Assembly: GCF_020532555.1 (NCBI RefSeq) | Contig: NZ_JAJBBR010000002.1 | Span: 186,001 to 250,000 of the forward strand | Direction of reading: 5' to 3' | Source of the DNA: Microvirga lenta | Lineage (GTDB): Bacteria; Pseudomonadota; Alphaproteobacteria; Rhizobiales; Beijerinckiaceae | Length of the DNA stretch: 64,000 nucleotides | Part shown: positions 2,115-63,245 of the stretch, piece by piece | Layout of the letters: each line of letters begins with the position of its first letter | How positions within the stretch are numbered: the first letter of the stretch is position 1 | The notes under the pieces: model-generated | The model's input: only the letters and a program-made list of their open reading frames with translations | Databases searched by the model: none | What the model was told of the DNA's origin: nothing | Position numbers and translations under genes: made by a program

Positions 2115-3272
2115 TCAGGCCCGCATCTCCTGCTGGCCCTGGGCCGAATGCGCCTTGCGCTTCCGGGACGCCTTGCGCTTGGTGGTTTCGATCTCCTGCG
2201 ACAGGCGGGCCTGCAGCAGGGACAGGACGGCCGCCTCCTCGGGCCTGAGGCCGTCGAGATTGTCCCGCAGCTCGGCCTCGACCTCCTCCTTCAGCTCCAG
2301 CAGCAGCGATCCTTCGAGATAGCAGCTGAACACTTCCGGATGCACGTAGCACTTGCGGCAGATGGTGGGCGTGTTGCCGAGGCGCGTCGAGACCTGCTCG
2401 ATCGCCTGCCGGATGTTCTTCTTGGCCTTGGCCTCGCTGTCGAATTCCTCGAATTCGGCGAGCGCCAGCGCGGCGAGAACCGTGCCGGCCCAGGTGCGGA
2501 AATCCTTGGCGGTGATGTCCCGCCCCGTCACCTCCTTGAGATAGGCGTTCACGTCGGCGGAGGTCACGGATTGCTGCTCGCCCTCCTCGTCCAGGTATTG
2601 GAAGAGATCCTGACCCGGCAGGTCCTGGCAGGCCTTCACGATCTTGGCGATGCGCCGGTCCTTCACGGAGAGCCGCCAGCTCTTGCCGCTCTTGCCCTTG
2701 AACTGAAAGCGCAGTTCCGTGCCGTCCACCTTCACGTGCGGGTCGCGCAGGGTGGTGAGCCCGTAGCTCTTGTTCTGCTTGGCATAGTCGGAATTGCCCA
2801 CGCGGATGAGCGTGTTCTCGAGAAGGTGGACCACGGTGGCCAGCACCTTCTCGCGCGGCAGACCGCGCTGGCTCATGTGCTCGTCGATGGTCTTGCGGAT
2901 CGCAGGCAGGGCATGCGCGAACTCGATCATGTGCTCGAACTTCGTGCTCTCCCGGATCTCGCGGAAGGCCGGATGGTAGCGGTACTGCTTGCGGCCCTTG
3001 GCGTCGCGGCCGGTCGCCTGGATGTGCCCGTTGGGCTTGGGGCAGATCCAGACATCCGTGTAGGCAGGCGGGATCGCGAGGGAGCGGATGCGCGCCAGCG
3101 TGTCCTTGTCGTCGATCTTCCTTCCATCCGGCCCCTGGTAGGTGAAGCCCTTGCCGGACTTCCTGCGCCGGATGCCGGGCTCCTCGTCGGACACGTAGAG
3201 AAGCCCTGCCGTCTCCGCCGCATCGCGCGGGTCGACGACGTTTTCGGACGAGGTGTTCGGATCCAGCAACAT
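2115..3272 (-). CDS. DNA topoisomerase IB
   Basis: This is a poxvirus/Deinococcus-type type IB topoisomerase that relaxes supercoils through a transient 3'-phosphotyrosyl link. It has 385 residues, normal for bacterial members. The N-terminal part carries the family block around GKGFTYQGPDGRKI. The catalytic domain shows RVGNSDYAKQNKSYGLTTLR, KDFRTWAGTVLAA and RLGNTPTICRKCYVHP, in which Tyr309 is the expected nucleophile. The C-terminus is Lys/Arg-rich. The ATG at 3272 was chosen because an in-frame extension upstream has no family-like sequence and would run across the neighbouring transporter gene. It is a stand-alone gene, 29 bases downstream of that transporter on the same strand. Confidence 0.93.
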   Translation of the reverse strand: MLLDPNTSSENVVDPRDAAETAGLLYVSDEEPGIRRRKSGKGFTYQGPDGRKIDDKDTLARIRSLAIPPAYTDVWICPKPNGHIQATGRDAKGRKQYRYHPAFREIRESTKFEHMIEFAHALPAIRKTIDEHMSQRGLPREKVLATVVHLLENTLIRVGNSDYAKQNKSYGLTTLRDPHVKVDGTELRFQFKGKSGKSWRLSVKDRRIAKIVKACQDLPGQDLFQYLDEEGEQQSVTSADVNAYLKEVTGRDITAKDFRTWAGTVLAALALAEFEEFDSEAKAKKNIRQAIEQVSTRLGNTPTICRKCYVHPEVFSCYLEGSLLLELKEEVEAELRDNLDGLRPEEAAVLSLLQARLSQEIETTKRKASRKRKAHSAQGQQEMRA

Positions 3273-28616: not shown

Positions 28617-28865
28617 TTAACGGATCCACTTCGCCTCGTTGACCTCCGGCTCGCCGTTCAGGCGCCGCTCCATGCGGATGGCGATGCGTCTGGCTGTGGC
28701 GGCGCTGCGGAAGAGGCGCATTTGCAGGTCCTGAAACGCCTGCAGATCGGCCTCGCTCGGGCTGTAGCGCCGGTCGTGCCAGTAGCGATAGACGAGCCTG
28801 ACGGCTTCCTCGGCAAGGCGCGCGGCCTCGGTGAGCGGCGGCTTGGGCTTGCGTCTGAAAAACAT
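28617..28865 (-). CDS. Small conserved-type protein of unknown function behind a structured leader
   Basis: This 82-residue hydrophilic protein starts MFFRRKPKPPLTEAARLAEEAVRL and is rich in Arg and Ala with an amphipathic helical pattern (SPSEADLQAFQDLQMRLFRS). No domain is recognised. GGGAGGGAAG lies just before the ATG. Its main interest is its 5' leader, the first of two copies of the structured RNA at 28871-29090, whose P1 strand can pair with this ribosome site. Whether expression responds to a ligand is unknown. Confidence 0.7.
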   Translation of the reverse strand: MFFRRKPKPPLTEAARLAEEAVRLVYRYWHDRRYSPSEADLQAFQDLQMRLFRSAATARRIAIRMERRLNGEPEVNEAKWIR

Positions 28866-28870
28866 GGCGG

Positions 28871-29090
28871 CTTCCCTCCCGGTGGGACACGGGCCACCGG
28901 CAGGGCTGGTGGCCAGGGGAGGTGATAAACCGCACGAAGACGGCTGCGCTGCCCTTTAGGCTTTCGCCCTGGACATACGACAGCGCCTCCCCGGCCATAG
29001 GCTGGGAAGGCATCGTTGCGGCCGATGCCGGCCGCTTCGTGAGGGGTTATCACACCCCCGGAGCCGCGTGTCTCGGCTCCTGAAGGAGTG
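28871..29090 (-). ncRNA. Candidate riboswitch-like structured RNA, copy 1
   Basis: Read on the minus strand, this leader folds into several helices that recur with compensatory changes in copy 2. P1 is 28922-28928 with 29047-29053, extended by GGGG/CCCC. P2 is 28933-28939 with 29035-29041, and P5 is 28946-28951 with 28981-28986. P4 is 28986-28996 with 29000-29010, and a hairpin is 29018-29024 with 29029-29035. The 24 bases 28953-28976 are identical to copy 2 and contain a GGC-GAAA-GCC tetraloop hairpin. A further hairpin (29060-29080) precedes P1. I do not recognise it as a known class. Confidence 0.75.
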
Positions 29091-62709: not shown

Positions 62710-63024
62710 TCAGTCGAACTCCGCCACGCCCCCCACCAACTCACGCGGTGGATTGCGCCAATCGAGCGGCCTCGGCTCGTCTCCTTGGCGGATGACGTGC
62801 CACTGGCCGGTTGCGTCCTGCACCACGCCGTAGACGAGGAGGCTCCAGGTCTCCGGGCGCGGACGCCGGATGGCCCGCACAATGTCGCGCAGGCCCCGCA
62901 CCACCAGCCACGTGACCCCGAGCACCATTCCCGGAACAGCGACGAGCCAAAGGGCCTGGATGGCGTCCGACGAGGTGTGGAACTTGTTGAGCAGGTCGGC
63001 CCAGACGGAATAGGGCTGGTCCAT
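62710..63024 (-). CDS. Small membrane protein of unknown function behind a structured leader
   Basis: This 104-residue protein begins MDQPYSVWADLLNKFHTSSD. It has one hydrophobic helix (ALWLVAVPGMVLGVTWLVV) followed by a basic stretch and a small soluble C-terminal domain (ETWSLLVYGVVQDATGQWHV). No family is recognised. AAGGGGGAG before the ATG is a strong ribosome site and can pair with the P1 strand of the structured RNA directly upstream. It shares no sequence similarity with the 82-residue protein behind the other RNA copy. Confidence 0.75.
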   Translation of the reverse strand: MDQPYSVWADLLNKFHTSSDAIQALWLVAVPGMVLGVTWLVVRGLRDIVRAIRRPRPETWSLLVYGVVQDATGQWHVIRQGDEPRPLDWRNPPRELVGGVAEFD

Positions 63025-63030
63025 GGCAAA

Positions 63031-63245
63031 ACTCCCCCTTGAAACCAAAACGACCACCAGGAGCCCTGGTGGCCGGGGAGCTAGAAAGCCGCCGCAAGAC
63101 GGCCGCATTGGCCTTTAGGCTTTCGCCCTGGACATGCGCCAACACCTCCCCGACCGTAAGGTGAGGGAGGCATCGTTGCGGTCGATGCCGACCGCTTGCG
63201 GACAGGGTTTCTAGGCCCCGGAGCCAGGTGCGCCCGGCTCTGCAG
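63031..63245 (-). ncRNA. Candidate riboswitch-like structured RNA, copy 2
   Basis: On the minus strand: P1 is 63081-63087 with 63208-63214, extended by GGGG/CCCC. P2 is 63092-63098 with 63195-63201, and P5 is 63105-63111 with 63139-63145 (with G-U pairs). P4 is 63145-63155 with 63160-63170, and a hairpin is 63178-63184 with 63189-63195. Helix sequences differ from copy 1 but pairing is kept. The core 63112-63135 is identical to copy 1. A strong hairpin (63052-63073) lies between P1 and the ribosome site. Confidence 0.75.

Follow-up and report, generated by a model that had tools for sequence, protein, structure and literature searches.

A repeated leader RNA of Microvirga lenta that probably works like phage C4 antisense RNA

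The most probable model for a structured RNA found twice in a 64,000-nucleotide stretch of the Microvirga lenta genome (the window) is that it forms the leader of a short operon-like unit. In this model, to which we give a probability of roughly 0.7, the RNA has the mode of action of C4, the antisense RNA of phages P1 and P7, and its target has been rewired in the chromosomal lineage. Both copies lie on the minus strand, at positions 28871-29090 (copy 1) and 63031-63245 (copy 2), where the initial annotation had placed them. Its claim of a conserved structured leader with true compensatory changes is borne out; the covariation exceeds a simulated tree-based null. Its further claim, an unrecognised aptamer, is unsupported: the 3' half of the RNA relates to sRNA-Xcc1, and the architecture and gene partners suit phage C4-type antisense control. 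A structured, widespread RNA is real; a new aptamer is not backed on present evidence.

Comparison of every letter confirms that the two copies share an identical block of 24 nt (28953-28976 and 63112-63135) and another of 14 nt (29008-29021 and 63168-63181). The stem first called P1 reads GTGATAA/TTATCAC in copy 1 and CTAGAAA/TTTCTAG in copy 2, and the stem first called P2 reads CACGAAG/CTTCGTG and CCGCAAG/CTTGCGG, both as described. The P5 strands of copy 2 had been given as CCAACAC/GCATTGG, which is a misprint; the sequence is GTGTTGGC/GCCAATGC. The proposed stem P4 survives in part: one strand is common to P4 and to an outer stem, P3, and P3 is the better supported. P4 as the main stem was rejected because its 3' strand covaries with the P3 partner instead. 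A reading of CCUAUGG/CCUAAAGG as a GAAA receptor was also set aside, as it differs between the two window copies.

In copy 1, a hairpin (29060-29080) that is conserved across the alignment of eight copies stands immediately 5' of strand a1 (29047-29053), which is the 5' strand of the annotated P1 and has a' as its partner. Strand b1 (29035-29041), the 5' strand of the annotated P2, is the partner of b'. Both pairings are marked by pair changes and covariation. Between a1/b1 and the core lies S1/S2 (29009-29034), a hairpin or H-type pseudoknot with covariation of its own; at this position a terminator-like hairpin can be seen by eye in Xcc1-type and C4 loci. The core is a predicted C4-like RNA of 86 nt (28911-28996), closed by P3 (5' strand 28987-28996, 3' strand 28911-28921). 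The P3 3' strand of copy 1 has one extra U (CTCCCCTGGCC), which is absent from the other seven copies. Within the core, hairpin P5 (28946-28986) shows covariation, holds the 24-nt block and has a GNRA tip. Hairpin P6 (28929-28944), with one covarying pair, carries b' (28933-28939) in its loop, an arrangement like that of phage P1 C4. Strand a' (28922-28928) and, directly after P3, the letters ACCA (28907-28910) are read from the sequence. ACCA resembles the 3' end of tRNA, and at this place it would be a possible signal for RNase P recognition. Farther on stand a ribosome-binding site, GGGAGG (28875-28880), which complements CCUCCC of the P3 3' strand in a run of 6 nt, and an open reading frame (ORF) of 82 aa (28617-28865) of no known family.

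In copy 2, strands a1 (63208-63214) and b1 (63195-63201) are likewise sequence readings. The predicted C4-like RNA has 85 nt (63071-63155), and the Rfam model RF02221 matches it at 63064-63154. It is closed by the P3 strands (63146-63155 and 63071-63080) and contains P5 (63105-63145), P6 (63087-63104), b' (63092-63098) and a' (63081-63087). ACCA again follows P3 (63067-63070, sequence reading), and the ribosome-binding site GGGGGAG (63032-63038) complements CUCCCC of the P3 3' strand. The gene behind it (62710-63024) codes for a small protein of 104 aa with one hydrophobic stretch. The neighbours of copy 1 in the window are secA, hxlR and an FMN reductase gene, and those of copy 2 are a BrkB-type gene, a GIY-YIG gene and clpB. 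Judged by these neighbour genes, neither copy lies in an obvious prophage.

The two copies first noticed are both real, and they belong to a larger set: the genome has 8 copies on 6 contigs, with 79-100% identity. Seven of the eight precede a small protein with, by eye, one hydrophobic stretch. Conversely, each of the 7 clear paralogues of this protein in the genome, that of copy 2 among them, sits behind an RNA copy; a further, weak partial match to the protein has an E value of 0.37. One copy elsewhere in the genome (L003, contig C31) has lost the b1:b' pairing, has its 3' part in common with another copy (L002) and precedes an ORF of just 51 aa, as if it were a decaying or recombined copy, to judge by its sequence. 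In another (L004/L014, contig C24), one TAG codon interrupts the small-protein frame.

Evidence for the fold is provided by covariation, first among the 8 copies. Standard pairs make up 96.2% of 292 pair cells, and sliding one strand by 1-3 columns lowers pairing to 38-49%. Both sides are changed in 14 of 37 pairs, a number reached in 2 of 500 shuffles, and the covariation score is equalled in none of 500; the number of further pair types is unexceptional (54 of 500 shuffles as high). Changes on both sides affect 3 of 5 pairs in a1:a' and 5 of 6 in b1:b'.

The same helices are recovered in wider sets of relatives. A covariance model built from the 8 copies, R1, has scattered matches within the order, in 33 of 249 genomes and with at most 8 copies per genome, and a pattern scan of genomes gave at least 112 stretches. 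In all, 198 matches of this type (R-type) were collected: 38 of the 69 rows of the first search, once wrong-strand rows, RF02221-type rows and three close copies were removed, and 160 of 171 later rows, less 11 that were cut off, secondary or weak. Removal of near-duplicates left 168 relatives, from which subsets of 164, 155, 38 and 23 were set by flank and start codon for the individual tests. Start codons were called by a simple script, and some are wrong (for instance in L004, L047 and L194). E values for covariation come from a custom script modelled on R-scape, not from R-scape itself. Among 81 relatives (83 of the better R1 matches chosen by hand, with near-duplicates removed), 12 column pairs reach E<0.05 against the tree-based null, all within proposed helices: 3 in a1:a', 4 in b1:b', 2 in P5 and a single one in each of the P5 tip, S1 and S2. 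For the 3' part, 164 relatives give 9 pairs at E=0 (P3 1, P5 6, P5 tip 1, P6 1). The strongest is a P3 pair, and the tenth-ranked column pair, with E 0.12, is not base-paired.

As the initial annotation had suspected, no Rfam family matches the window at its gathering score. In a permissive search, the only sensible match is sRNA-Xcc1 (RF02221), which aligns to both copies over model positions 1-87 of 87, with 24.4 bits (E 0.05) for copy 1 and 29.6 bits (E 0.0025) for copy 2. Neither reaches the gathering score of 53 bits. Across the genome, the RF02221 model recovers 4 of the 8 copies at E 1.9e-4 to 7.8e-3 (29.6 to 36.3 bits), again below the cut-off, and at E 0.01 it finds matches in 50 of 249 genomes sampled across the phylum, 32 of them above the cut-off. 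In the reverse direction, R1 finds 11 of the 30 RF02221 loci with E values of 1 or less; its top match there, L017, has 31.1 bits. Because the top wrong-strand match of R1 in its own loci scores 22.8 bits, a value surpassed by 4 of these 11, the weak matches count little. Of six R-type loci, only two match RF02221 at E 0.5. On this sequence evidence we take the R-type element and sRNA-Xcc1 to be related lineages.

Both types occur in viruses. In IMG/VR, the R-type core pattern is present in 58 stretches, 55 of which R1 matches at E 0.01, and the Xcc1-type pattern is present in at least 120. Of 20 Xcc1-pattern viral loci sampled, 19 exceed the RF02221 gathering score. Two of these viral contigs (L265 and L278) contain true C4 RNAs as well, 1-2 kb away from sRNA-Xcc1, as though one device could stand in for the other. 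Around copy 2 itself, blastn with a 260-nt stretch gave zero matches in 50,697 phage records, and the same stretch gave 5 weak matches in plasmids, of Paracoccus and Shinella.

Many of the genes behind the viral copies belong to families that we take, in part by their Pfam names, to be of antirepressor type. First genes of the Xcc1-pattern viral loci (63 non-redundant from 114 called in 120 listed loci) include, among the matches listed, ORF6N 11 times, KilA-N 10, Bro-N 8, P22_AR_C 8, AntA 7, Rha 5 and P22_AR_N 2. Those of the R-type viral copies (41 from 45 called in 48 loci) include Bro-N 6 times, P22_AR_N 4, ORF6N 4 and Rha 3. In these counts one protein may match two families, and proteins of <50 aa were excluded. 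Antirepressor-type genes stand behind many viral relatives and are absent behind the window copies. Of the 23 viral loci whose first gene has at least 120 aa, 21 show a match of b' to the ribosome-binding site and 16 a match of a' to the spacer.

In the chromosomal lineage to which the window belongs, the gene partner is mostly a small membrane protein. The small-protein family, with 41 members, has no Pfam or NCBIfam name. It yields single weak matches (Pfam E 0.0037, NCBIfam E 6.5e-4), and one member falls in a phrog of unknown function at E 3e-11; a known family was rejected, as these matches in Pfam, NCBIfam and phrog each involve a single member. PADLOC matches none of the 41. The 82-aa ORF of copy 1 differs from this family. 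In two Microvirga genomes (L105 and L146) the RNA is followed by ORFs that are 61% and 65% identical to it position by position; it has a sub-cutoff match to DUF3376 in Pfam (E 0.0028), and the two related ORFs have no Pfam match.

A search with the small-protein alignment finds 17 loci in 8 of 199 genomes. The RNA is directly upstream in 13 of them, of which 7 are in the present genome and 4 in one other. Those without the RNA are L387, L390, L391 and a weak partial match, L392. At L387, L390 and L391, and also at L077, a divergent Cro/C1-type helix-turn-helix gene is found directly upstream in place of the RNA, as if the small-protein gene always needed a repressor. This host is not alone in having several chromosomal copies, as genome G442 has 7 (L051 and six more places) and G285 and G534 have 4 each. 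Agrobacterium vitis genomes also have several copies before the same small-protein family (L089, L090, L093, L117, L135, L163 and L189).

The target sites of these chromosomal loci were studied in 38 of 44 listed, chosen by the look of the first gene. Here b' matches the ribosome-binding site in 1 of 38 and a' matches the spacer in none, and b1:b' is retained in 33. Instead, the ribosome-binding site complements the end of a' together with the P3 strand over at least 6 nt in 25 of the 38, and over at least 7 nt in 16; for the ribosome-binding sites of 52 other genes the corresponding values are 14% and 4.6% (p 6e-7). In some loci the outer base follows, as in GAACUCC/GGAGUUC, CAACUCCC/GGGAGUUG and CCUCCC/GGGAGG. 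The match is hardly copy-specific (own 6.29 vs cross 6.09): it is mostly common to the copies and so cannot be very specific, and part of it may be a G-rich Shine-Dalgarno sequence meeting a C-rich strand by composition. Judged from these comparisons, the way the RNA meets its target has apparently changed in the chromosomal lineage of the window.

From the observed helices, covariation, controlled complementarities and gene partners we infer repression and a trigger for it. The process would start with a single transcript that carries a1/b1, then an RNA of ~85 nt closed by P3, and then the ribosome-binding site of the small gene. In the phage relatives, the RNA would be released, probably through RNase P cleavage at the foot of P3 on its 5' side. 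Its b' would then pair with the ribosome-binding site and its a' with the site upstream, so that the antirepressor gene stays off. In the chromosomal lineage, where the a2/b2 sites appear to be gone, the P3 3' strand could take over as the complement of the ribosome-binding site. An open P3 would bury that site and a closed P3 would free it, if the direction of the switch is read correctly. The copy-specific b1:b' pairing persists; it would act as an internal helix joining leader and core.

One part of the RNA fits this model less readily. The conserved internal loop of P5 is unexplained by an antisense role alone, and it invites another reading, in which the element is a ligand-sensing riboswitch with this loop as the aptamer and an alternation of P4, P3 and ribosome-binding site as the expression platform. 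The strong conservation of the 24-nt block and GNRA tip within P5 would suit an aptamer, as would the placing of the leader before genes. By sequence reading, two partners are available to the P3 5' strand: an upstream strand (P4) and the P3 3' strand, the latter being able in turn to pair with the ribosome-binding site. What makes a riboswitch unlikely is the nature of its would-be clients, since the downstream genes have no common metabolic theme: they are antirepressor-type genes, unnamed small membrane proteins and, in one of 25 first genes behind RF02221 genomic copies (L031; the 25 are from 28 called), a SymE match. Viral relatives also have copy-specific a2/b2 sites, for which a riboswitch has no need. 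Known Rfam riboswitches give zero matches, either in the gathering-score scan of the window or in permissive scans of both copies; an aptamer of known class was rejected for lack of any Rfam match at gathering score.

Pairing between U, a strand upstream of the core, and M, the 3' part of the core, is copy-specific. Across the 164 relatives used for this comparison, out of 168 that are non-redundant, own pairs have a median of -26.8 and cross pairs of -17.4 kcal/mol (p 6e-27), and the own partner is strictly best in 49%. A complementary run of at least 7 nt to the 26 nt before the start codon is present in 79 of 155 loci, compared with 12.7% when sites are taken from other loci and 3.9% when they are shuffled. 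An early energy test of M against the ribosome-binding region D in 33 R-type loci (5 of 38 rows omitted) was nearly flat, with own -23.2 and cross -22.4. In a fixed-window test of 66 X-type viral loci the own U ranked strictly first in 9% and the own D in 5%; this test is weak because its windows were unaligned, so it is kept out of the main evidence.

These results bear on the published view of sRNA-Xcc1, by which the element would be a trans-acting regulatory RNA with many targets and the downstream gene would be incidental. In its favour, the sections of PMC2996969 drawn on here describe sRNA-Xcc1 as an RNA of 88 nt with mapped ends and many predicted targets. In those sections, however, the targets are computational predictions, and the complementarity before the adjacent start codon in the 155 relatives is specific to the own locus. 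The RNA is moreover reported upstream of symE in Xanthomonas integron cassettes, according to the part of PMC12444791 that concerns them. A trans-acting role with an incidental neighbour is accordingly quite improbable.

The U strand lies outside the Rfam model, and its counterpart in 30 RF02221 loci behaves in the same way. There U pairs with M (median own -27.3 vs others -19.4 kcal/mol, own strictly best in 14 of 30), and M pairs with D (own -22.2 vs others -16.5 kcal/mol, own strictly best in 4 of 30); in many of these loci the sequence of the U strand recurs in D. An alternative reading as a mobile element or self-splicing RNA is very improbable. In its favour are the U/D repeats of Xcc1-type loci, taken as target-site duplications or exon pairing sites, and the patchy occurrence with several copies per genome (8 in this one and 7 in G442). 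Against it, the small-protein copies carry differing b1:b' without a matching D, all 7 clear small-protein paralogues here have the RNA, support for the reading ends at the repeats themselves, and no splice-site or transposase signature was noticed on reading the loci by eye.

Under the C4-like model, sRNA-Xcc1 and its relatives gain a direct and testable target, the adjacent downstream gene. The model also joins records that are separate in Rfam, namely sRNA-Xcc1, studied as a virulence-linked trans-acting sRNA, and the phage C4 antisense RNA. No link between the two was found in the open-access literature, and one paper that names both keeps separate Rfam annotations in the portion available. 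A phage control device has apparently been reused in chromosomes with its target site changed, and the natural series of viral, Xcc1-type and chromosomal copies lets the change of mechanism be followed.

A bolder extension, tentative and on balance doubtful, is that chromosomes of Alphaproteobacteria have domesticated a phage antisense repressor and use it as a repeated module to control a family of small, possibly toxic, membrane proteins. Its logic would have changed along the way: in place of a released antisense RNA binding a2/b2 there would be a switch based on folding or processing. If this were true, closing or cutting the outer stem would decide whether the ribosome-binding site is free, and integrons would offer a parallel in sRNA-Xcc1 with symE. 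The four family members that have a divergent Cro/C1-type gene and no RNA suggest that the small protein may always need a lock.

The closest known system is C4 itself (RF01695, in clan CL00128 with c4-2 and c4-a1b1). As described in the relevant section of PMC5320573, C4 is a ~77-nt RNA freed by an RNase P cut at the 5' end of its outer stem; its b' covers the ribosome-binding site and its a' gives specificity. The annotated order in the phage P1 c4 region is a1, b1, c4, a2, b2, icd. There b1 ends 66 nt before c4, c4 is 77 nt long, a2 starts 3 nt after it, and b2 ends 10 nt before icd. Phage P1 c4 has an outer stem and two hairpins, with b' (37-45) in the loop of the second and then a' (50-58). 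The element shares with C4 the upstream a1/b1, the outer stem, the two hairpins, b' in a loop and a' after it, a GG at the base of the outer stem on its 5' side, and similar length and spacings: the span from P3 to P3' has a median of 85 nt in 168 relatives and of 77 nt in 30 RF02221 loci. Downstream of phage P1 C4 there are likewise a small gene (icd) and antirepressor genes.

Further hints come from the ends of P3. RCCA follows P3 in 80 of 164 relatives. At the 5' foot of P3, 66 of 168 relatives have UA(U/C/G)GG, a motif present in 10 of 1008 control windows. Both are hints of RNase P recognition, no more.

The element differs from C4 in that P5 has its own conserved internal loop, and in that the chromosomal lineage lacks a2 and b2, the ribosome-binding site complementing an outer-stem strand instead. 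RF01695 matches neither window copy at E 10 and nothing in this genome at E 0.01; at E 0.5 it matches none of 15 R- or X-type loci, in a scan that matched all 4 C4 loci. Because of this mismatch to the C4 covariance model and the missing a2/b2 in the window lineage, membership of the C4 family is not claimed: by its sequence, the element is C4-like by design and not a proven C4 member.

Some C4 loci have further Rfam matches nearby. A match to isrK lies just upstream of a C4 RNA at L265:2422-2605, L265:3565-3753 and L278:843-1028 (plus strand), and in L371 (minus strand), where it overlaps a c4-a1b1 match; isrK possibly corresponds to the a1/b1 leader in units of the C4 type. In L022, a c4-2 match below threshold (2890-2958, minus strand; 34.8 bits, E 0.0013) and an RF02221 RNA are separated by ~1.3 kb.

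With sRNA-Xcc1 the element has P3, P5 and P6 in correspondence and a covariance-model relation across the 3' half. It differs in scope and in description: RF02221 covers the core only, is described as a trans-acting sRNA and stands outside any Rfam clan. A third comparison is offered by the Group 1 sRNAs of Acinetobacter baumannii, which, in the section of PMC5320573 that treats them, have many chromosomal C4-like copies per genome, apparently processed at a GG motif. The Rfam C4 motif fits those sRNAs, whose targets are given there as proposals and not as established; here, by comparison, a gene stands behind each copy and the target site has changed.
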